Origin: Sabellastarte sp. h YS-2021
Lineage: Eukaryota > Annelida > Polychaeta > Sabellida > Sabellidae
Length of the DNA stretch: 64,000 bases
Assembly: GCA_964017235.1 (NCBI GenBank)
Contig: OZ024936.1
Coordinates: forward strand, 91,734,537 to 91,798,536
Direction: 5' to 3'
Both the position numbers and the translations under genes were made by a program. The notes under the pieces are model-generated. The model did not search any database, was not told where the DNA came from, and saw nothing but the letters and a program-made list of their open reading frames with translations. Positions 31,537-62,161 of this stretch are shown here, piece by piece. Positions within the stretch are counted from its first letter, which is position 1, and every line of letters begins with the position of its first letter.

Positions 31537-31738
31537 TCAGTCCATCTTGATGTTAACATAGATGTAGCGTATGAACGACAGCGACGCAAAGAATGAGACC
31601 GTTCCCAGCATCAGGAAGAAGACGTAACATGCCAGCACGGTGTAACCGAAGAACTCCACAGTCTGCAGCAAACCGGACATGTTACTACGCTTGAAGTAGT
31701 AGAAGAGTGAATACAGGAACACAAACACGCCAGTGGAT
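31537..31738 (-). CDS. TM9SF1: TM9SF1 last exon and stop
   Basis: It joins the GG of exon 7 to give [20 protein letters not shown] and continues [20 protein letters not shown], ending [12 protein letters not shown] then TGA (31539-31537). The final two helices and the short cytosolic KMD tail, of the KxD/E type that binds COPI in this family, are intact. The acceptor is a clean polypyrimidine TTTTTTTTCAG. The [14 protein letters not shown] stretch marks TM9SF1 rather than TM9SF2, 3 or 4. Confidence 0.97.
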
Positions 31739-33105: not shown

Positions 33106-35121
33106 AACTAGAAATAGGACGCCCTGTTGATAGTAGATGCGAATAGAAACAGGATAGCATAGAAGAACACACATTATCATGTGTAATGTCCACCCCATGA
33201 ACCTTGCCCAAATTGTACAGTAGTCTTACAAGACCCTGTTTCATTTGTAAAATATATCAATGATGCTTAAATATTTATTAGTGTAGATGTAAATTATTTC
33301 AGCTTCATGCCTTTTTGCATTGGTTGGGTTGAAAATTTTGACGAAATCACTCTATCTTGCACGGTTAAGAAGATAGAAGCAAATTCCTGTTTTTCTATTT
33401 TTGGCAAAAATTTGAAAATTCAAAATGGCCGCCATTTTTGGGAAAAGGAAAATTTTTGGAAAATTGCCAAGAGTACATTTCTTAGATACCCTATGGGTCG
33501 AAAATTTCAATGAAATAACTCTATTTTGCACGGTTAAGGCCAGTTTGTGTTTTTCCATTTTGGGCAAAAATTCAAAATGGCCGCCATACGTGGGGAGGGG
33601 AAAATTTTTCGAAACTTGTAAGGAGTACATTTCTTAGATACCCTGTGGGTCGAAAATTTCGATGAAATCGCTCTATCTCGCACGGTTAAGGAGATAGTAG
33701 CAAATTTGTGTTTTGCCATTGTTGGTAAAAATTCGAAAATTCAAAATGGCCGCCATTTTTGGGGAGGGGAAAATTTTTTGAAAATTGCAAAGATTACATT
33801 CCTTAGATAACCTGTGGGTCGAAAATTGTGACGAAATCGCTCTATCTCGCATGGTTAAGGAGATAGAAGCAAATTTGTGTTTTGCCATTTTTGGCAAAAA
33901 TTTGAAAATTCAAAATGGCCGCCATTTTAGGGGAGGGGAAATTTTTTTTTTAAATTGCCAAGAATAGAATGCTCAAATACCTGTGGGTCGAAAATTTTGA
34001 CGAAATCGCTCTATCTCGCACGGTTAAGGAGATAGAAGTAAATTTGTGTTTTGCCATTTTTGCCAAAAATTCGAAAATTCAAAATGGACGCCATTTTTGG
34101 GGAGGGGAAAATTTTTTGAAAATTGTAAAGATTACATTCCTTAGATACCCTGTGGGTCGAAATTTTCGACGAAATCGCTCTATCTCGCACGGTTAAGGAG
34201 ATAGAAGCAAATTTGTGTTTTGCCATTTTTGGCAAAAATTCGAAAATTCAAAATGGCCGCCATTTTTGGGGAGGGGAAAATTTTTTTGAAAATTGCAGAG
34301 TACACTCCTTAGATACCCTGTGGGTTGAAAATTTCGACGAAATCGCTCTATCTCACACAGTTAAAGAGATAGAAGGAAATTTGTGTTTTTCTAAAATTCA
34401 AAATGACCGCCATTTTTGGGGAGGGGGAAAATTTTTTTAAAATTGGCAAGAGTAGAATTGTCAGATACCCTGTGGGTCAAAAATTTCGACGAAATCGCTC
34501 TATCTCGCACGGTTAAGGAGATAGAAGCAAATTAGTGTTTTGCCATTTTTGGCAAAAATTCGAAAATTCAAAATGGCCGCCATTTTTGGGGAGGGGAAAA
34601 TTTTTTGAAAATTGCATAGATTGCATTCCTTAGATACCCTGTGGGTCAAAAATTCTGTCGAAATCGCTCTATCTCTTACGGTTTCTGAGATATTAGCAAA
34701 TTACTCAAAAGTAGTACTGAAAATACACAATGAAGTACCTAAATGGCTAGTACTCATGTACTGACAAAGCTATCAGTCCAAAATGCAATACCAAGCGAGC
34801 TATGGACATAACAATCTTGTATTCAAAATTGTAGTAAAATATCTTTAATTATTTTGGCTTAAATGCACGGAAACCAATGGGTACTGAAAATAGCTGTACT
34901 TAAGTATTACTCAGTAAGCAAAAGAGGTACAACAGCCAAAAGCAATCCCAAGCAAGCTACTGACCCAATAAGCCTGCATACTAAATTTGGTGACAATAGC
35001 TCTAATACTTTTCCTTTAAATGAGCGGAAACCATGCGTGACGCCGGACATCGGACGCCGGACATCGGACGGCGGAAAAAGCAAAAATAATGTATCCACCC
35101 CCCAGGGGGGTGGACATAATA
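33106..35121 (+). mobile_element. 169-bp satellite block 1 (family 2), about 9 monomers and tail
   Basis: The left flank AACTAGAAATAGG...CCTGTTGATAG is followed by about nine monomers of about 169 bp (33330-34680). Each has GACGAAATCGCTCTATCTCG, AAGGAGATAGAAGCAAAT, AAAATGGCCGCCATTTTTGG and TTAGATACCCTGTGGGTC. The right arm (34690-35121) has CCAAATTTGGTGACAAT, a GACGCCGGACATCGGACG stretch and a terminal hairpin CCACCCCCCAGGGGGGTGG before ACATAATA. The many ORFs of about 70 residues inside are frame echoes of the monomer. Block 2 at 39212-42479 has the same flanks. Confidence 0.88.
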
Positions 35122-35187
35122 AATGCTCATTCTCTCACAATTGACAGTGATCAAGTGTAAGAATTTAAAGCAAACAGTACTTAGCAT

Positions 35188-35810
35188 TAGTGCTGTAACG
35201 AGTTGACCGAAACTCGAGTTATAACTCGGTGGTTGATATTTGGAGATCACATTGATTTAAGCAATTTAAGCTTGAGTTCTTAAGAAATAAATAATAACAT
35301 GCTAACCTTGTTACAAACCAACACTTTTGCAACTTACCTAACTATAAAAAGGTAAAAATCAATGAGCAATGGTCGGTTTTTATCTACCTTACTTACGTGG
35401 CTGTTCCATAAAGTGCACATACACAGCCTTGCATTGTGATAATTTGTGAGTTTTAACTTTTTGTTTACAAACTTTTTTCATTTCTAAATGTTCTATTTTG
35501 CAGCAGTTATTTTAAGAAGCTTAAAACATAAATGTATCAGTTGATCTTGTACAAAGTAGATGCAAGAAAAGTGAAAATGCTCAAATTAACTAAACCGTCG
35601 AAACAAGGATACTTGACTATACCTGTACAATTTTACCTGCAACAAAATATATTTCCTTGCAATAAAAAAGGTACTAAACACATTTAATGGCTATATTTGG
35701 ACATTATGTTATTTCATTTATATTTATGTCATTTACTCAAGTTCAGCTCGAGTTCATCTCGCATCTAACAGGCAATCCACGATCTACAGAACTCGCTGAT
35801 AACAGCCCTA
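35188..35810. mobile_element. hAT-like MITE with 8-bp target duplication
   Basis: The left end TAGTGCTGTAACGAG and right end CAGCCCTA form inverted termini. The target duplication CTTAGCAT (35180-35187) versus CTCAGCAT (35811-35818) matches at 7 of 8. Internal CTCGAGTT modules recur near both ends (35208-35226, 35745-35760). The next hAT-like element begins at once on the right. Confidence 0.75.
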
Positions 35811-35818
35811 CTCAGCAT

Positions 35819-36140
35819 GAATGCTGGGACAACGCTATTATCACTTGCTGGCTCAATGCAGAATAATGATGGGTAAAATTTCAGTACAACCTGAAGTTGT
35901 TCAACTCATCTCTTTATAGCCTTTTTTGTCCCAATCAAAATATTATTTTGAGAAAATTTTGTACACCCACAAGTTAAAATTGTAAATTTCAACTAGATGT
36001 AAATATAAAAATATACAAACACTGTTCAATGTTATCGTAATCATAAAATCAGCCAATCACAAGTGAGGACAGGTAAGGCATGGTATACAGTGAGGGACAC
36101 ATTTGTAGAAAGTTTTTAGGTTATAATCTGGTTATATTCA
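35819..36140. mobile_element. hAT-like MITE fragment, relative of 44724-45241
   Basis: The left end AATGCTGGGACAACGCTATT followed by ATCACTTGCTGGCTCAATGC parallels AGTGCTGGGACGATG...ATCGCTCGCTGGCTCATTGC of the complete copy. Homology continues through AATCATAAAATCAGCCAATC to about 36140 and is then lost. Its right terminus is not identified. Confidence 0.6.
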
Positions 36141-36245
36141 AGGTGATTGGTAGCCGACTAGTCGTTGACGGCTGAAAAGATTGTGTTTGCCGACTTGTGT
36201 TTAGACAATGAAATTATGCAAAATTGTTTCAAGAGAAGTATAATT

Positions 36246-36614
36246 TAGTGTTGTTGTTGAATGCAAATTTTAGAACTGGTTTCCGAAAGCGGAAATTCGG
36301 TGAAAAAACGGCTAAGTTTGATTTATTAAATGCAAAAAAATAAGTTTTCAAATGCGTACATGAGTCATAACTCGCATATAAATAAGAACAACAATGGACT
36401 TTTTGAAGACTTTCGAGGACAAAATGGGTGATATATTGATAGAATATTATAAAATACTGTGAAATATTTTGTTGTAGATGAATATTTTAATAAACTTAAG
36501 TTAATATAATGACTATGTGGTGACACCAGTTTTGGTTACAAGAAAACGAAACGTTACCGGATCACGTGTCATTCAGTCGGCAAATAGGTTTCCGGTTTAC
36601 CGTCTTCAACACTA
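36246..36614. mobile_element. hAT-like MITE, short form of the 61-kb element
   Basis: The termini TAGTGTTG and CAACACTA are perfect 8-bp inverted ends. The flanking octamers GTATAATT (36238-36245) and GTATAATA (36615-36622) match at 7 of 8. The left 200 bp and right 130 bp are homologous to 61019-61215 and 62025-62161, but the LINE-like segment of about 800 bp in that copy is absent here. Confidence 0.75.
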
Positions 36615-36869
36615 GTATAATATAAACCAGCACTATAACTTTAACTTAAAACAATAGTCTATCTGACATAAAGTATTGTCAAGTTTTTGTGATCTGTATG
36701 TTTCTGAAATTTAGCATCCACCGAAAATGTTCACTTCCTGTAACTATGGAACAGGCCCAAAGGCTGTGATCAATCAATCAAAAAATCTGTCAATTTACTA
36801 TAAACTTACCAAAATATTTTAAAAGCACATGGATATTCAGATACATGTATCATGACAGAACTGAATCTG

Positions 36870-37220
36870 AATGAATTTCAAATTCGCCAACAGAATTTCC
36901 AATTGGAAGTTGTGTTGGCAGAACTTCCAATCCTTGTGTTTCATTGGTTTAGAGGGATTTGAAGGACTTGTCTTGAACTTCATATCCTGACGATAAAATT
37001 GAGGGTATTGCTTTGAGTTTCAGATTTTGGATGGATTTCTAGTTCTGTCAACAGAATTTCAAGTTATTTTCAACAGATTTAATCACAAGGATTATGTATA
37101 AGTAAGGTTACAAGTACCAATTGGAAATTATGTCAAAATAAATTCTGTCAAATTACCTTGGCACAACTTCCAATTGGGTGTTCTGTCGACAAAATTTAAA
37201 TTTTGTCACATTTGAAGTTT
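36870..37220. repeat. GAAGTTCTGTC palindromic repeat, copy 2
   Basis: Alternating AATTTCAAATTC, TTCCAATTGGAAGTTGTG, GGCAGAACTTCCAA and TTCTGTCAACAGAATTTC modules. It is homologous in module content to 15880-16045 and 48540-48700 and probably a degenerate foldback element. Confidence 0.5.
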
Positions 37221-37224
37221 TGTC

Positions 37225-38700
37225 CGTTGATTTTACCAAATACATGTAGTTCCATAAATTTTGCATGCCAATTTGTTTTTTTTCCTCCCCATTTCTCTCC
37301 GTACTGTAAACTTATTTACATAGAGATTATACGAGAGATTACGGTGTAGGTTTCAACTACTACACTTGTGATGCATGTTTTCTTGGATATTCATGAAGGA
37401 ATACATTAAAGGTATTTACTAGTTCATTTACTATATACACCACAGACATTGCTTCAAACAACATCTTCCAGCTATTTGGCTAATATCATTCATTATCGCC
37501 CATACACTGGGTAGTTGTTTTGACAAGTTTAGTCCCTCAAAGGCTTGAATGGTTATTTCGACTTTTGGATAAGTCGAGGTTATTGGAATGGTGCCATAAA
37601 ATTCGAGATAATGAGGTTAGACTGTAGTTCCATAAATTTTGCATAAGTGGTTATGAGAATTAAAACTACACCTGGTATATCCCCCCCCCCCCCCCCCCCC
37701 CCCCCCCCTTGCCCAAGAAAAAAAAATCACCTAAATCTATTCTAAATTTTAGTATCCACCAAACTGAACGATATGTGGTTGATGTAAGCAAGACGTAAGT
37801 GACATAGCTTTCCAAATGGGGAAAACTATGTTGCAAATGAATATAATGTTTTAATAGTTAATTTACATTACGGTGATGTATCAACGATAATGCAAGATTG
37901 GAAGATTGACTTATATAGACATGTGATAGACTACTTCTTGAAAGTCAGAGAATATATAAGGAGAGAGGTGACGGTATTATATCTGCCATAATGTCAGGCA
38001 TATCAAAGATTTTCAATTAAGCACCAACTATATTGGAAATCCATCAACAGTCAATTGACACATGAATGCATAAATTATGAATCACTTTGACGCACACAGA
38101 CCACAGGAACAGTATTGGGACACCAAAGCTGTCTTGTATAGCTATTCATTTTATGTGCTGACCAAATTTACACAACATTTGGAGTAATTTATAATTCCCC
38201 TACTCAGTGGCTGATATGTTAAGAAGAAATGCTCAGTGGCTTGTTGACAGGGTATATTTAGATATAATTTATCACTTTAATTGTGCAAATATGTATTGAT
38301 ATATCATTTAACACTTAAATTAGGCATTTATATTACAAATATCCTTTTATGAGAAGACTGACAAGTATTTTTTAAGTAATCCAGTGCAGTTTTTTAACAA
38401 AATAATCACGTCCATTAGCATTAATTGGAGAGAAGTTTTTCATTCTGGGTAAATGAGCCACATATTTCTTATTTATACCTTTTTCTCACAAAACTTTAGA
38501 AACATTTACATGAGAAGCAAAATATTCTATTCTATTTTGTACTTTTATAGCGCTTAATCTCTGCCAGGTAGACTCTAAGGCGCAACACAAGAATCCAAAT
38601 AAAACTAGAGTATTACTTCGTAAGAGAAAAAGAAATTGTTTTGGCTAAGCAAAAAACAAAGCGTCCCTATGAGTATTAATGACTTGGCAGAAATGACCAT
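37225..38700. other. Intronic sequence with poly-C tract
   Basis: GTAGTTCCATAAATTTTGCA occurs at about 37247 and again at about 37626. A pure C run of about 28 bases lies at 37681-37708 (its length may be an assembly estimate). No exon or RNA gene seen. Confidence 0.5.
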
Positions 38701-38714
38701 CTTCCTGTGTTTTA

Positions 38715-39010
38715 TTCCATTTATGCCAAAACAATTTTTGAGAAAAGTCGCCAGTATACTCTGCAGATACCCTGTGGGTCAATAATTTTGTCGAAATCGC
38801 TCTATCTCACATCGTTTCAGAGATACTTGTGTTTTAGCATTTTACGCAGAAATTCAAGATGGCCACCAAAATGGCAGGGAAAACGATTTTTTGCCAAAAG
38901 TTGCCAGTAGACTGCATATACCTCGGGGGTCAAAAATTTCGTCTTAATCGCTCTATCTCGCACCGTTTTCGAGATAAATATGTTTTTGCTTTTTTACACT
39001 TTTTTCACTT
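38715..39010 (+). repeat. Two diverged family-2 monomers
   Basis: CAGATACCCTGTGGGTCAAT, GTCGAAATCGCTCTATCTC, a CAAGATGGCCACCAAAATGG variant, then a second unit with TATACCTCGGGGGTCAAAAA and AATCGCTCTATCTCGCACCG. These are much more diverged than monomers of blocks 1 and 2 and lie about 200 bp left of block 2. Confidence 0.75.
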
Positions 39011-39211
39011 TGTTGGAAATATGGTTATAATATAAAATCCATAGATATACTGGGAACATTTCACAATATTCTCAACAAAACGCAATAGCATTCCTTGCGA
39101 TATTGGCGATTTTTAAACATTTTGTCTAAATTCAGAACTTTCAACCATACTTTGTTTTAGGGGCAGTCAGTAAACGAACAACTGAAGGTCTATAAACATC
39201 ATCCCAGCAAT

Positions 39212-42200
39212 AACTAGAAATAGGCCGCCCTGTTGATAGTAGATGCGAATAGAAACAGGATAGCATAGAAGAACACACATTATCATGTGTAATGTCCACC
39301 CATGAACCTTTTGCCCAAATTGTACAGTAGTCTTACAAGACCCTGTTTCATTTGTAAAATATATCAATGATGCTTAAATATTTGTTAGTGTAGATGTAAA
39401 TTATTTCAGCTTCATGCCTTTTTGCATTGGTTGGGTTGAAAATTTTGACGAAATCACTCTATCTTGCACGGTTAAGAAGATAGAAGCAAATTCCTGTTTT
39501 TCTATTTTTGGCAAAAATTTGAAAATTCAAAATGGCCGCCATTTTTGGGAAAAGGAAATTTTTTTGAAAATTGCCAAGAGTACATTTCTTAGATACCCTA
39601 TGGGTCGAAAATTTCAACAAAATAACTATTTTGCACGGTTAAGGCCAGTTTGTGTTTTTCCATTTTGGGCAAAAATTCGAAAATTCAAAATGGCTGCCAT
39701 TTTTGGGGAGGGGAAAATTTTTTGAAAATTGCAAAGATTACATTCCCTAGATACCCTGTGGGTTGAAAAATTTCGACGAAATCGCTCTATCTCGCATGGT
39801 TAAGGAGATAGAAGCAAATTTGTGTTTTGCCATTTTTGGCAAAAATTTGAAAATTCAAAATGGCCGCCATTTTAGGGGAGGGGAAATTTTTTTTTAAATT
39901 GCCAAGAATACAATGCTCAAATACCTGTGGGTCGAAAATTTTGACGAAATCGCTCTATCTCGCATGGTTAAGGAGATAGAAGGAAATTTGTGTTTTGCCA
40001 TTTTTGGCAAAACTTCGAAAATTCAAAATGGCCGCCATTTTTGGGGAGGGGAAAATTTTTTGAAAATTGCAAAGATTGCATTGCTTAGATACCCTGTGCG
40101 TCGAAAATTTTGACGAAATCGCTCTATCTCGCACGGTTAAGGAGATAGAAGCAAATTAGTGTTTTGCCATTTTTGGCAAAAATTCGAAAATTCAAAATGG
40201 CCGCCATTTTTGGGGAGGGGAAAATTTTTTTTAAATTACCAAGAGTACAATGCTCAGATACCCTGTGGGTCGAAAATTTTGACGAAATCGCTCTATCTCG
40301 CACGGTTAAGGAGATAGAAGCAAATTTGTGTTTTGCCATTTTGGGCAAAAATTCGAAAATTCAAAATGGCCGCCATTTTTGGGGGAGGGGAAAATTTTGG
40401 GAAAATTGCAAAGATTGCATTCCTTAGATACCCTGTGGGTAGAAAATTTTGACGAAATCGCTCTATCTCGCACGGTTAAGGAGATAGAAGGAAATTTGTG
40501 TTTTGCCATTTTTGGCAAAAATTCGAAAATTCAAAATGGCCGCCATTTTTGGGGAGGGGAAAATTTTTCTCAGATACCCTGTGGGTCGAAAATTTTGACG
40601 AAATCGCTCTATCTCGCACGGTTAAGGAGATAGAAGCAAATTTGTGTTTTGCCATTTTTGGCAAAAATTCGAAAATTTAAAATGGCCGCCATTTTTGGGG
40701 AGGGGAAAATTTTTTGAAAATTGCAAATATTACATTCCTTAGATACCCTGTGGGTCGAAAATTTCGACGAAATCGCTCTATCTCGCACGGTTAAGGAGAT
40801 AGAAGCAAATTTGTGTTTTGCCATTTTTGGCAAAAATTCTAAAATTCAAAATGGCCGCCATTTTTGGGGAGGGGAAAATTTTTGGAAAATTGCAAAGATT
40901 GCATTCCTTAGATACCCTGTAGGTCGAAAATTTCGACGAAATTACTCTATCTCCCACGGTTAAGGAGATAGAAGCAAATTTGTGTTTTGCCATTTTTGGC
41001 AAAAATTCGAAAATTTAAAATGGCCGCCATTTTTGGGGAGGGGAAATTTTTTTTGAAAATTGCAAATATTACATTCCTTAGATACCCTGTGGGTTGAAAA
41101 TTTCGACGAAATCGCTCTATCTCGCACGGTTAAGGAGATAGAAGCAAATTTGTGTTTTGCCATTTTTGGCAAAAGTTCGAAAATTCAAAATGGCCGCCAT
41201 TTTTGGGGAGGGGAAAATTTTTTGAAAATTGCAAAGAGTACACTCCTTAGATACCCTGTGGGTCGAAAATTTCGACGAAATCGCTCTATCTCGCACGGTT
41301 AAGGAGATAGAAGGAAATTTGTGTTTTGCCATTTTTGGCAAAAATTCGAAAATTCAAAATGGCCGCCATTTTTGGGGAGGGGAAAATTTTTTGAAAATTG
41401 CAAATATTACATTCCTTAGATACCCTGTGGGTCGAAAATTTCCACGAAATCTCTAATGGCCGCCATTTTTGGGGAGGGGAAAATTTTTCTCAGATACCCT
41501 GTGGGTCGAAAATTTTGACGAAATCGCTCTATCTCGCACGGTTAAGGAGATAGAAGCAAATTTGTGTTTTGCCATTTTTGGCAAAAATTCGAAAATTTAA
41601 AATGGCCGCCATTTTTGGGGAGGGGAAAATTTTTTGAAAATTGCAAATATTACATTCCTTAGATACCCTGTGGGTCGAAAATTTCGACGAAATCGCTCTA
41701 TCTCGCACGGTTAAGGAGATAGAAGCAAATTTGTGTTTTGCCATTGTTGGTAAAAATTCTAAAATTCAAAATGGCCGGGGAGGGGAAAATTTTTGGAAAA
41801 TTGCAAAGATTGCATTCCTTAGATACCCTGTGGGTCGAAAATTTCGACGAAATCGCTCTATCTCGTACGGTTAAGGAGATAGAAGCAAATTTGTGTTTTG
41901 CCATTTTTGGCAAAAATTCGAAAATTCAAAATGGCCGCCATTTTTGGGGAGGGGAAAATTTTTTGAAAATTGCAAAGAGTACACTCCTTAGATACCCTGC
42001 GGGTCGAAAATTTCGACGAAATCGCTCTATCTCGCACGGTTAAGGAGATAGAAGCAAATTACTCAAAAGTAGTACTGAAAATACACAATGAAGTACCTAA
42101 ATGGCTATTACTCATGTACTGACAAAGCTATCAGTCCCAAATGCAATACCAAGCGAGCTATGGACATAACAATCTTGTATTCAAAATTGTAGTAAAATAT

Positions 42201-45241: not shown

Positions 45242-45689
45242 GTGTTACATAAGGTTGTGATTCTGTCGTCCTTCCGTGTAATACGGCAACATAGGGTGAG
45301 TTAAGGTATTGATTGTTTCACCACATGTTTGTCCAACAGCTACCGAAGGTGAGTTGGTGTTAATGGAGGTTGCTTCTCGGTGACGAATATTTGTAGTACT
45401 ATCATCCTATTGTTATTGACAGTTAAAAAACCGTGTCCAATCAGTGGCCGTCCGCCTATAGTGTGAACAACTCGGACGAAATGGGTAATCTGGGGTCAGT
45501 TCCGCCACTGAGTAAAACTTCTAACCATGGGACATACTGCCTCTATGTGAAACCAACTTAATCTTGGCAGAGATCAAAGTTCTAGACCTAGATATGTGGC
45601 ATCCTATGATAGCATTGCAGACAGACTGCAGCTGTCAGCAGATTAATCGCCTAAATCTAACAGGGGGTCAAAGGTCATGACCTACTCAC

Positions 45690-45881
45690 CCTGCACTGAA
45701 GATAGACCTCCACCACCAGCGGTAGTCCTCTGCGGACAGCTGGAAGTAGGTCAAGGCCACGGAGATGCAGGCAGTGACAGACAGGAGAATACCATATACC
45801 ACAAATAGGATGCCGTACAGTGTGTACTGTTCACGTCCCCACAGGGTGGCAAAAATGTAGTACAACTCCACAGAGATGGCG
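45690..45881 (-). CDS. TM9SF1: TM9SF1 exon 7
   Basis: 192 bp encoding [40 protein letters not shown] and [20 protein letters not shown], the most conserved block of the family ([18 protein letters not shown], [15 protein letters not shown]). The acceptor is CTATTTACAG and the donor GTGAGT after GG. Satellite copies flank it on both sides within a few hundred bases. Confidence 0.97.
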
Positions 45882-45965
45882 CTGTAAATAGAGTAAACAG
45901 ATAGATAAACATACAAAATGAATAAGCAAATGCAAAGACAAGGAGGCATAAACATGAACTTTTAA

Positions 45966-49600: not shown

Positions 49601-49952
49601 AATCAACAGATTTACACTGAATAAAAAGACCAGGCATAAGTAGTACTTAGGAAAAAGAATCAGTAATGAAGTACCAGAAAAAGAAAATATTCTATTTTTG
49701 TAGGTACAAGTATAAGTGCGGCATAAGCAGCATCAAATCCTTCAGATATTAGTGGTTCTAGCTTTTTTTAGCTTTTTTTAAAAAAAATTTCTTTATTGTT
49801 TACATCACATGACCTGTGAAAATGTCATGTGAGTGGTTCAATCATGTGACTGACCCGAATGGCAGGTCATGTGACAGTTTATATTATATGAATGACCTGA
49901 ACAACAGGTGATCATTTTTATCATATTTATATGATTATATCATGTAACTGAC

Positions 49953-50115
49953 CTGAATGGCAGGAAGCCTCCCACCACGCAGTGGGCGAGGGCTGATCTG
50001 TACCAGGGGATGGGTGGGATCTCACGTGCGATGTTCTTTGTCCTACATGGAGCATCAAATCCATTTGCCCAGTTCTTGCCAAATATACCACCGACAATTG
50101 TCAGGGGGTAGCCCA
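49953..50115 (-). CDS. TM9SF1: TM9SF1 exon 6
   Basis: 163 bp encoding [20 protein letters not shown], then [20 protein letters not shown] and [13 protein letters not shown]. The [16 protein letters not shown] loop is nearly invariant in TM9SF proteins. The acceptor is TTTCTCTGCAG and the donor GTCAGT after AG. Confidence 0.95.
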
Positions 50116-50506
50116 CTGCAGAGAAAGGAAGACAACATTGACTGTAGCAGCAAAGTTGTTATTTACTGACAAAAGTTTGTTATTTATATTAGCTTAAACA
50201 ATCCAACAAGCTTGAAACAACAGTCACATAGGGCTCACGTACACAAGGGCATTTCTAGGATTTATCCAGGATCTGAAATTCACGATGATCTGACTACTCT
50301 GTTTATTTAAGTTAAAAAACAGATACAGAATAATAAAATCGTTAAATCAGGAAAGGAGTAGATAAAGCTTGAGAGAAAAAGACTGTTTCTTGAAGAAGCA
50401 TTGTTCTTCTGTTTACTTAAATACAGTGTGGAACAAGATATGATGTACCATATATGTCTTGCATATACATATTTATATCTTATATGCCTTACTGATATCT
50501 TTAAAA

Positions 50507-54395: not shown

Positions 54396-54506
54396 ACAGA
54401 GCCCAGACTGAGGTGACTAGGATAATGGTTCCCCAGGGTAAGGCCTGGGTGGATCCGTAACCCCAGGCGATAGAGTTCACCACCGCCCACACCAGGAAAA
54501 ACGGAG
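54396..54506 (-). CDS. TM9SF1: TM9SF1 exon 5
   Basis: 111 bp encoding [20 protein letters not shown] then [16 protein letters not shown], with the GSTQALP landmark between two membrane helices. The acceptor is GTATTGTAG and the donor GTAAGT after a single T, giving a Leu codon at the junction where vertebrates have Val. Confidence 0.95.
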
Positions 54507-55884: not shown

Positions 55885-55977
55885 CCACAAACAGTGCGGA
55901 TGTGAGGTTGATGTTCCACACCCAATTCTCTCCTCCCATCTTCTTGTACATGTTGGCGGCCATGTAACCGGACAGGC
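55885..55977 (-). CDS. TM9SF1: TM9SF1 exon 4
   Basis: 93 bp. It completes a cysteine codon with the T of exon 3a/3b, then reads LSGYMAANMYKKMGGENWVW and NINLTSALFV, the SGY..xxxY and GG..WVWN.xLT core of the family. It ends with one G before GTGAGT. The acceptor is CACTGTAG. A SINE fragment begins only about 15 bp from the acceptor side. Confidence 0.95.
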
Positions 55978-56095: not shown

Positions 56096-56460
56096 ACAAA
56101 GACCAAATAAAACACTCAACAAGATCTACACAACAAAGAGTGGGACAGAAGACATTATAAAACACTTATGTTTATTATACAACCAAGACTTACTCAGATT
56201 TTAATATTTATGTATGTTGGCAGCCAAATATCAAATTACTTATATTTATAATGCAAGTTGGATTTACTCAAATTCAAAGAGTAAATGTGTATACCTGTTG
56301 CCAGAAAGACATGATCTACACAGGAAAGTAATGACATAACTTTTTAGATGTAATCAGCACCCTACCCTGGCATAAAACTATTAAAACATAGAAAAACTTG
56401 GAAACAATATTTTAATATTTTACAGACTCTTATTTTATTAATATGAATCGCTATCAGTAA

Positions 56461-56690
56461 ATACTTAAAGGAGGTGAGTGCATACTAACATGCAATGAGG
56501 AAATACTTACACGAGGTGGAAAATTACTTACAAGAAATGAAGTATTTGCATGGGGTAAAAATACTTACAGGAAATGAGGACATACTTAAGGAAATGAATA
56601 AATGCTTAAGTACAATGAGGAAATAGCAGGAAATGAGGAAATACATAAACTATTTACAGGAAGTGGAGAAATACTTACAGGAAGTGAGGG
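56461..56690 (-). repeat. Minisatellite of splice-donor-like units behind exon 3a
   Basis: On the minus strand a degenerate unit of about 20 bp, TTTCCTGTAAGTATTTCCTC, recurs about eight to ten times starting at the true donor of exon 3a (GT at 56678-56677). Good donor matches GTAAGTA also occur at 56568, 56531 and 56510, with weaker ones (GTAAATA, TTAAGTA) between. The exon-intron border itself is one unit. Confidence 0.75.
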
Positions 56691-56804
56691 CATACAACAC
56701 AATGGCGGCCGTGTTAATAGAGCCGTGGTGGTGAACATTAAACATTCCCAGTAATGCCATAAGTAGGATTCCCGAAGCCACAGAAAGAAACTGCGTCCCA
56801 ACTC
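56679..56804 (-). CDS. TM9SF1: TM9SF1 alternative exon 3a
   Basis: 126 bp, acceptor GTATTTGCAG, donor GTAAGTATT. It encodes [20 protein letters not shown] then [20 protein letters not shown] and S, closer to the vertebrate TM9SF1 pattern ([15 protein letters not shown]) than exon 3b. It enters after the single G of the previous exon and leaves with a single T, exactly like exon 3b. The intron beyond its donor contains repeated copies of the donor sequence (see 56461-56690). Confidence 0.95.
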
Positions 56805-57405
56805 CTGCAAATACACAGAGGGCGAACAGAATGTCAGCACAATTAGAAGTGTATCGTAGAAATCCACGCAGAGAAACACTTTCACTGCATCAACAAAAGT
56901 CAAGCCATTGGACAATGCCCTAGACCCTCTCCTACAGAAAAATAAAGGTGTGATCTTCATCTGGTGAAGTCATTTTAATTCATAGATCCATGGTCATTAA
57001 GTGGTTAGTAAAAAAATTAGTGCACAAACAAATGAGGGATAAAACAAATATGAGGTGATAAACTTGAATGACCTTGAAGTAAAAACGCGAGGGTTAAAGT
57101 TTTGAAAAATCAAAATTTAGCATCACTTTCCACAGCTTTGAATACAGGCATTTGTTCAGAGGACAATATTAACAATTTTGATGAAAGAAGATGAAAGAAG
57201 AATGCACCAACGATATTTTTCTTCAAAAGAAAATAAAGTCAAATTTCTGTTCATTTGAATCAATGTTAGATTTATAAATCTCCCCTCCGAGTGTTAGCAA
57301 GAGTTGGGAACAGCAGTTTCTGAAATGAAAAATAAAAGAGAAGAATAAACTCAAAGCCACAATAATTTCTCTCTCTATATATCCTGGACCACGTGTTTCA
57401 CTCAC

Positions 57406-57531
57406 AAGAGGTCGCTGCAAACAAGAGGAGTGCCACGGTGTTGATATAGCCGTGCTGATGGACGTTGAACATTCCACACAGTGCCAGCAGGATTAGGCTG
57501 CTCATAAGCGCAAAGAACTGGCTCCCGACCC
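57406..57531 (-). CDS. TM9SF1: TM9SF1 alternative exon 3b
   Basis: 126 bp, acceptor CACCATGCAG, donor GTGAGT. It encodes [20 protein letters not shown] then [20 protein letters not shown] and S, a membrane helix, the conserved NVHxHG loop and the start of the next helix. It has the same length and phases as exon 3a (56679-56804) and 24 of 41 full codons encode the same residue. Since relatives have a single copy of this segment, the two exons are expected to be used alternatively. No stop, frameshift or damaged splice site is visible, so neither copy looks like a pseudo-exon. Confidence 0.92.
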
Positions 57532-59529: not shown

Positions 59530-59674
59530 CCAGTATGGCGCAGAAGAGACTTTTGAGTGGAGGGAATCTGAACACATCGGTGTGTATGATCTTCCAGCCG
59601 TTATCCTCCTCCTCTACAATGTCATCTTCTTCATCCAGCGAAGAGCGCGCAAAGTCGTTACGCAGGACCCGGGT
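59530..59674 (-). CDS. TM9SF1: TM9SF1 exon: cytosolic loop
   Basis: It starts [18 protein letters not shown] and continues through an acidic insert to [20 protein letters not shown], the cytosolic loop between the first and second helices with the family landmark HTDVFRFPP. Length is 145 bp, entering in phase 0 and ending with a single G before GTAAGG, so it can join either exon 3b or exon 3a to give a glycine codon (GGG or GGA). Confidence 0.95.
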
Positions 59675-60849: not shown

Positions 60850-60921
60850 CAGAATAATGACAACGAAGCCAATCAACAGGAAAACCAGAACCATTGAGTT
60901 GATGATAGACAGCCAGTGGAT
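60850..60921 (-). CDS. TM9SF1: TM9SF1 exon: first membrane helix after the lumenal domain
   Basis: Phase 0 at both ends; 24 codons. It reads IHWLSIINSMVLVFLLIGFV then VIIL, the strongly conserved IHWxSIxNS entry followed by the first helix of the membrane domain. The acceptor is TTTTATTTCAG and the donor GTTAGT. No further upstream exon was found up to the window edge, so the amino-terminal signal peptide and lumenal domain are outside. Confidence 0.95.
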
Positions 60922-61018: not shown

Positions 61019-62161
61019 TCGTGCTGTGGTTGAATGCAAATTTTTGAACCGGTTTCCAAAAGTGGAAATTTGGCAAAAAACCGGGTGCATTTGATTTATT
61101 AAACGCAGAGACATAAGTTTTCAAATGTGTACATAAGCTAGAACTCACATATAAATAAGAACCATGATGAGCTTTTTGAGGACTTTCAAGGACAAAATGT
61201 GTGATATATTGATAGAATACTGGCATAATGATATATATATTAAATGCGTTCAACTGGCTGTTCACTTAGGTCACATAATTGGTGTGAATACAAAAGTGAA
61301 GGTGATTGATCAAGCAATCAATACATTCAATGTTGCTTTGTACAGCAGACTTAATACATTTCAATATGCTAATGTCACTGTAAAATACAAATTAGTTAAA
61401 AGTTTTTGCATGCCTCTTTATGGCATTGTGTTATGGGATTTTGAATCTATAGAAATATTACAATTTTACACAGAATGGAGAAAAACCATAAGAAGGTTAT
61501 TTAACTTGTCTAACAGAACTCTTAGTATATACCTCCATCTTATATGTGATGATTCCCCCATCAATGTACAATTGTACAAGAGGTTTAATAAATTCATCGA
61601 GACAGTACTAAATAGCGATAATAATTGTGTCAAATTAGCTGGCAGAATGGCTGTTTGTGGAAGTCAATCTAATGTTAGTAAAAATATTAATTTTATTGCG
61701 AAGGAGTTAAACTGCACTCAGGAACTTGTTTCTGAAACACCTGTAAGATTCAAAAACAGAAGTGATATCTATGAACATTCTCAGAGTAATGTTAATGATA
61801 AAGTCGTATGTGGCGATATTAAAGACCTTATTTGTATCAAAGAGAGTAATCACACCAAATTCAGCTATGAAGAAATTACTCATATGACAGAATACTTGTG
61901 TACCTGTTAGGTGATGTTTGTGTCATTAAATCTTATGTATTTCTAAACTGCATAATGTATATATGTATGTATGCATTTATTATCAGTGTATATCTTGTAA
62001 TGTTTATTTTCCATGTTCGTTGTGGTTGAATATTTTGGTAAACTTAAGTTTAAATAATGAACATGTGACAAAACCGGTTTTGGTTAAAAGAAAAGGAAAC
62101 GTAACTGGATCAGTGTCTTTCGGTCGGCAAATAGGTTTCCAGTTTACCGTCTTCAACACTA
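61019..62161. mobile_element. hAT-like element carrying a LINE reverse-transcriptase tail
   Basis: Left end TCGTGCTG, right end CAACACTA, flanked by GTAGATAC at 61011-61018 and 62162-62169 (perfect; the match can be read as up to 13 bp). The outer parts match the short element 36246-36614, but the interior has an additional LINE-derived segment of about 800 bp. It is therefore a composite: either the LINE piece entered a MITE, or the short copies are deletion derivatives. Confidence 0.75.
61164..61910 (+). pseudogene. LINE ORF2 C-terminal remnant inside the hAT-like element
   Basis: A 248-codon open frame whose first about 17 codons come from the MITE arm. The rest reads HLGHIIGVNTKVKVID, VKSFCMPLYGIVLWDFES, EWRKTIRRLFNLSNRTLSIY and LHLICDDSPINVQLYKRFNK, the region following the catalytic palm in non-LTR retrotransposon reverse transcriptases. 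Catalytic motifs, endonuclease and a poly-A tail are missing, so it cannot act as an enzyme. The frame has nevertheless stayed open for about 225 codons without a stop. Confidence 0.75.

Follow-up and report, generated by a model that had tools for sequence, protein, structure and literature searches.

Most of a TM9SF1 gene lies on the minus strand of a 64,000-nucleotide stretch of the 1.79-Gb genome of Sabellastarte sp. (C14:91734537-91798536; hereafter the window), and its exon 3 is present in two adjacent copies, 3a and 3b. The two copies are likely to be an old tandem duplicate of which one is used at a time, giving two full-length proteins with 3b as the default, while a TGA codon formed at the seam between 3a and 3b, backed by nonsense-mediated decay (NMD), would bar their joint inclusion. 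A message with a single copy would then encode one of two TM9SF1 proteins differing in helix 2, in the short lumenal loop NVHxHGxIN and in the beginning of helix 3, the segments that exon 3 presumably covers in the TM9 topology. A message with both copies would be stopped at the seam and removed by decay, and productive output would be mutually exclusive even with leaky splicing.

Anatomy of the exon pair

An earlier note on this DNA, made from its letters alone, had described two 126-bp exons of equal phase with intact splice sites, 601 bp apart. Its coordinates, lengths, phase and spacing were all recovered in the sequence:

59530-59674, minus strand: exon 2, the upstream neighbour shared by both copies of exon 3; its last base is G, the first of a Gly codon
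57406-57531, minus strand: exon 3a, 126 nt, phase 1-1, encoding (G)-41 residues-(C); donor with 6 of 11 positions agreeing with the U1 consensus
56805-57405, minus strand: intron between 3a and 3b, 601 nt
56679-56804, minus strand: exon 3b, 126 nt, phase 1-1, encoding (G)-41 residues-(C); donor with 9 of 11 positions agreeing with the U1 consensus
55885-55977, minus strand: exon 4, common downstream partner, completing a TGC (Cys) codon with 3a or 3b

Each copy begins with the two bases that complete a Gly codon and ends with a single T. The AG border is intact in the acceptors of 3a and 3b (...CACCATGCAG and ...GTATTTGCAG, respectively), as is the GT border in their donors (GTGAGTGAAA and GTAAGTATTT), and exons 2 and 4 join in frame with either copy. 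A recount reproduced the reported identity of 24 of the 41 whole-codon residues. The pair thus consists of adjacent homologous exons of the same phase and equal length with intact splice sites, as is characteristic of mutually exclusive exons.

The product matches Pfam EMP70 (PF02990; EMP70/nonaspanin family) and carries the loop GMFNVHxHGxIN, which distinguishes it from the remaining three TM9SF genes in this genome. We take it to be TM9SF1, and compare it below with a presumed human TM9SF1 sequence.

Protein-level constraint on both copies

Likeness between 3a and 3b is concentrated at the protein level. Across 20,000 residue shuffles, the highest number of identities was 14, against the 24 observed. 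The numbers of identical bases at codon positions 1, 2 and 3 are 27, 33 and 13 of 41, and so few identities at position 3 were not seen in any of 20,000 permutations. By the Nei-Gojobori method, pS is 0.85 and pN 0.26, the synonymous sites being so near saturation that dS is not estimable. Both spliced products fit EMP70 without gaps over the same span, with 195.9 bits for the 3a isoform and 203.7 for the 3b isoform, compared to 136.7 when the exon is omitted; the gain over the skipped form is 59 bits for 3a and 67 for 3b, which is the copy nearer to the family profile. These gap-free fits, together with the pattern of identity by codon position, exclude a chance origin of the likeness. Since synonymous sites are close to saturation and protein sites are conserved, both copies must have been under protein-level selection for long, indicating that 3a and 3b have each been read as protein over that time. 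The proposed tandem duplication of a TM9SF1 exon is thereby supported, with both copies constrained and one expected per protein.

The seam codon and the double-inclusion product

The joint codon with exon 2 is GGG for 3a and GGA for 3b, both Gly, and at the junction with exon 4 either copy yields TGC. When both copies are skipped, the codon formed is GGC and the frame stays open. Joining 3a to 3b places the last T of 3a (57406) before the first two bases of 3b, and the resulting seam codon is a stop:

56803-56804, minus strand: first two bases of 3b (GA), completing GGA (Gly) after exon 2 and TGA (stop) after 3a

Between this TGA and the next junction lie 124 nt of 3b. According to the usual 50-nt rule for NMD, a message with both copies is expected to be an NMD substrate, and tight exclusion at the level of splicing is therefore not required. 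It had been claimed that products with both exons skipped or both included would stay in frame, so that splicing must be actively constrained. The skipped product does stay open, but the double-inclusion product does not, and the need for active constraint falls with it. Because the seam codon is a stop, exclusion can be backed by NMD even though both exons are in frame. The pair does not belong to the frameshift-NMD subclass, as 126 = 3 x 42 and it is the seam codon that supplies the stop. A seam stop in a symmetric pair is a correction that would change the mechanism proposed, and on this sequence-derived basis the pair is a sound candidate for mutual exclusion.

The A that decides the stop is the third base of the 3b Gly codon, a silent site at which 3a has G. 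Any tandem copy of this exon makes a TGN seam, since the exon starts within a Gly codon (G, then GN) and ends within a Cys codon (T, then GC). It is conceivable, and we propose it only tentatively, that exclusion is written at this one silent base: selection would keep the A of 3b for the sake of the TGA, splicing could then be sloppy and decay would exclude, the donor array described below adding a second stop-coupled layer through extra U1 sites. If the A is selected, related species should share this one silent base of 3b even though the other silent bases are saturated. The stop at the seam is certain; its selection is not.

Three points weigh against use of the copies as an NMD-backed exclusive pair. 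First, the chance of a TGA arising without selection is sizeable: the seam has to be TGN, and GGA accounts for 7 of the 13 Gly codons in exons e1 (an upstream coding exon), 2, 3b, 4 and 5, the seam codon included. Second, the double-skip product is open and nothing was found in the sequence to remove it. Third, in a human EST (expressed sequence tag) study most duplicated adjacent cassette pairs were spliced independently or linked, not exclusively (PMC2432081). For 3a and 3b, linked inclusion is not an option because of the seam stop.

Splice-site strength and a donor array at the end of exon 3b

Since its donor matches the U1 consensus at 9 positions against 6 for 3a, 3b is likely to be the default. 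It would represent the canonical version and 3a the regulated one. The end of 3b also belongs to a repeat that runs into the following intron:

56459-56689, minus strand: degenerate tandem array of about 20-bp units, including the end of 3b plus its donor (CCTCAYTTCCTGTAAGTATTT)
56650-56652, minus strand: in-frame TAG, met if 3b is extended to any of four donor-like sites in the array

When up to 6 mismatches are allowed, the exon end with its donor (CCTCACTTCCT before and GTAAGTATTT after the border) makes up nine units from 56689 to 56459, of which the exon end is the first. Elsewhere on the minus strand of the window, a further eight matches occur singly and dispersed. Four extra donor-like sites fall within the array, with first intron bases at 56568, 56531, 56510 and 56489 and U1 matches of 8 or 9 of 11, and use of any of them would extend 3b into the stop. 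The minus strand of the window has eight sites with a score of 9, four of them in the array with the true 3b donor included, and none of 1,000 shuffles of this stretch reached its five sites. On the plus strand of the window and on both strands of the loci L004-L007, the densest 200 nt hold at most 2 such sites. A genome search found the array only here, together with the exon end that matches it (one candidate was scored and very common words were skipped).

A second donor-like cluster, with 4 sites in 200 nt compared to the 5 of the array, is present at about 35200-35396 on the minus strand, in a TM9SF1 intron. The array is hence not the sole dense donor cluster, and what sets it apart is that it consists of repeats and lies at the end of an exon, not its density alone.

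Regarding classical routes to exclusion, the 601-nt intron makes steric interference unlikely, in agreement with the earlier note, as it exceeds the limit of about 50 nt from donor to branch point (the branch point is not mapped). All splice sites of 3a and 3b are GT/AG and U2 type, which gives no ground for spliceosome incompatibility, and no U12 donor motif was found in the three introns. A scan with ten classes of regulator motifs provided leads only. Between the exons, a STAR/QKI-like bipartite motif (ACUAAY...UAAY) has 2 overlapping matches at 57021-56996 on the minus strand, against 0.08 expected: ACUAAU and ACUAAC, then UUAAU. As a lead, it could repress 3b or favour 3a. Further leads are one TGCATG after 3b at 56494 (0.19 expected), 12 CT-rich motifs upstream (5.6 expected) and 3 clustered YCAY upstream (0.25 expected).

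Alternative explanations of the pair

Competing RNA structures, with docking and selector sites, might choose 3a or 3b strictly at the splicing level, an explanation that we regard as unlikely. Pairing of the 600 nt that precede 3a with the intron following 3b scored -207.1, below all 20 shuffles (mean -186.2, minimum -197.0), and that of the whole upstream intron with the between-exon intron scored -235.2, below the minimum of -230.9 in 6 shuffles; the other three of the five full-length pairings stayed within the shuffle range, and these values are uncorrected for the five pairings. Likewise, the best local helices (30 nt) between the between-exon and upstream introns (-26.9) and between the upstream and downstream introns (-25.6) were below all 8 first shuffles each, but in a larger set each was matched or beaten by 2 of 40. 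The best helix between the between-exon and downstream introns (-21.0) stayed within its 15 shuffles (null mean -21.1). Moreover, the search over whole introns and local helices identified no docking site common to two selectors.

Alternatively, 3a could be a poison exon: included beside 3b, it would produce the seam stop and reduce the output of TM9SF1 through alternative splicing coupled to NMD, with no relevant 3a isoform. The seam codon, the weak 3a donor and the closer fit of 3b to the family profile would all suit such a role. A poison exon needs no protein conservation, however, whereas 3a keeps its 24 residues in common with 3b at near-saturated synonymous divergence, retains the NVHxHGxIN loop and adds its 59 bits to the EMP70 match. 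We therefore find this reading quite improbable.

That 3a is an unused relic (pseudo-exon) of the duplication is very improbable. Its weaker donor and longer branch in a six-sequence tree point in that direction, the joining of 3a, 3b and human TM9SF1 being inseparable in this tree. Against this, 3a has an open frame, both splice sites and divergence biased to third positions, and simulated unconstrained drift at the observed nucleotide identity kept 24 residues without a stop in 0.025% of 20,000 runs. Finally, constitutive use of both exons, giving a protein with an extra helix pair, would agree with the intact splice sites, found no other support and is refuted under the standard code by the seam TGA, which leaves it practically no credence.

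Specificity and age of the duplication

Among 13 TM9SF1 exon segments queried against the gene region, only exon 3 has a second copy at E 0.01 (14 queries, both exon 3 copies counted; the exon before e1 and the first exon were left out). A genome search gave two strong places, 3a and 3b, with a third place at E 0.9, and revealed no retrocopy. Three further EMP70 genes are located on C18, C5 and C3, which we take from their motifs to be TM9SF2/3/4-like. They have other intron positions and lack the GMFNVHxHGxIN loop. The segment was seen once in each, as the earlier note had stated for TM9SF proteins in general; this search scored the best candidates only, and since 3a itself came out at E 0.08 there, a weak second copy could be missed.

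In a six-sequence tree over 42 columns, a bootstrap of 98 supports a group of 3a, 3b and human TM9SF1 apart from the paralogues, and the duplication is therefore most likely to postdate the split between TM9SF1 and these genes. Within that group the three possible joinings are inseparable (AU 0.41, 0.48 and 0.55; 42 columns), and the branch of 3a is longer than that of 3b. Over 41 residues, 24 are identical between 3a and 3b, 24 between 3a and the presumed human sequence and 29 between 3b and the latter. The duplication could date back almost to the separation from vertebrates; alternatively, it may be more recent, with 3a having evolved faster. For comparison, a calcium channel exon pair is common to protostomes, including molluscs, and was lost before chordates (PMC9741552). 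Viral and prokaryotic collections returned 25 and 71 pattern matches, respectively, with no relative confirmed among them, and solved structures returned 0 matches.

A COQ2 pair as a control in the same genome

A search for the UbiA family combined with a local search located a pair of homologous COQ2 exons about 31 kb apart, at C1:112669129-112669259 (131 nt, L050) and C1:112700277-112700410 (134 nt, L054). They share 25 of 43 residues, with pS 0.81 and pN 0.30, a signature nearly the same as in the TM9SF1 pair. The homologous coq-2 exons 6a and 6e undergo mutually exclusive splicing in helminths, annelids and molluscs (PMC7434440), and judging from family and likeness, the pair found here is probably the published one. 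Its presence also suggests a genome from one of these three phyla. The two pairs differ in that neither COQ2 length is divisible by three, so that double inclusion shifts the frame, whereas both TM9SF1 exons have 126 nt.

Relation to known systems

In a survey of human mutually exclusive clusters, 60% hold exons whose length is not a multiple of three, steric interference is possible in 9% and spliceosome incompatibility is seen in less than 1%, the rest being left to other mechanisms; the survey argues that paired membrane-helix exons could hardly be spliced as cassettes (PMC5740500). Like the tandem-duplicated exons of that survey, the TM9SF1 exons are adjacent, equal in length and phase, membrane-helix-coding and protein-constrained. 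Yet they fall outside its three classes, being divisible by three, separated by a 601-nt intron and flanked by U2-type sites, and no seam-codon stop class was seen in the part of the survey available to us. In a review of unproductive splicing, stop codons that arise at exon-exon junctions are described where an essential exon is skipped or an alternative splice site is chosen, and the mutually exclusive class is treated through frameshift (PMC11062102). The TM9SF1 case resembles these junction stops in that an in-frame event creates a stop at a new seam, here in a candidate mutually exclusive pair. In the open-access literature searched, we recognised neither a description of a seam stop for in-frame mutually exclusive exons nor a report of a duplicated TM9SF1 exon 3. 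The duplicated exon 3 distinguishes this gene from known TM9SF1. A TM9SF1 splicing event has been reported in human cervical cancer, its type not being named in the text at hand (PMC6865056).

If our preferred explanation of exclusive use with a seam stop is true, a membrane protein of the secretory pathway joins the genes diversified by mutually exclusive exons. It would also represent an exclusion route for symmetric exons that requires no frameshift, steric clash or RNA docking, the stop arising only at the forbidden seam.

Predicted consequences for the protein

In a hydropathy scan, each of the two exons has one clear helix, and with 3a only, a second peak exceeds the threshold. In helix 2, 3a has Ser where 3b has Gly. 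In work on TM9SF4 and Phg1A, though not on TM9SF1, these proteins were shown to bind glycine-rich membrane helices and to aid their surface delivery (PMC4510845). By analogy, swapping the exons could change which cargo membrane helices TM9SF1 handles. If the isoforms do differ in cargo, they would offer a natural two-state TM9SF1 for mapping the sites at which TM9 proteins read membrane helices.

Structure of the TM9SF1 gene

The remaining exons placed in the window are the following:

60850-60921, minus strand: upstream coding exon e1, encoding the first helix of the membrane domain (IHWLSIINSMVLVFLLIGFVVIIL)
54396-54506, minus strand: exon 5
49943-50116, minus strand: exon 6, tblastn extent with unrefined borders
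45689-45883, minus strand: exon 7, tblastn extent with unrefined borders
31540-31737, minus strand: last coding exon, tblastn extent

More N-terminal exons lie upstream of the window, in the loci L004-L006. Exons were located from residue 42 to the end, in the numbering of the presumed human sequence; the search did not recover the first exon, which accounts for about 41 residues. Two further features of the introns were observed. On both strands of 33300-42100, and also in L005 and L006, many open frames repeat a similar peptide (ALSRTVKEIEANLCFAIFGKNSKIQNGRHFWGGENF), indicating an intronic repeat family in the TM9SF1 gene. On the plus strand, a 251-codon open frame at 61155-61910, in the intron upstream of e1, is perhaps a fragment of a mobile element.
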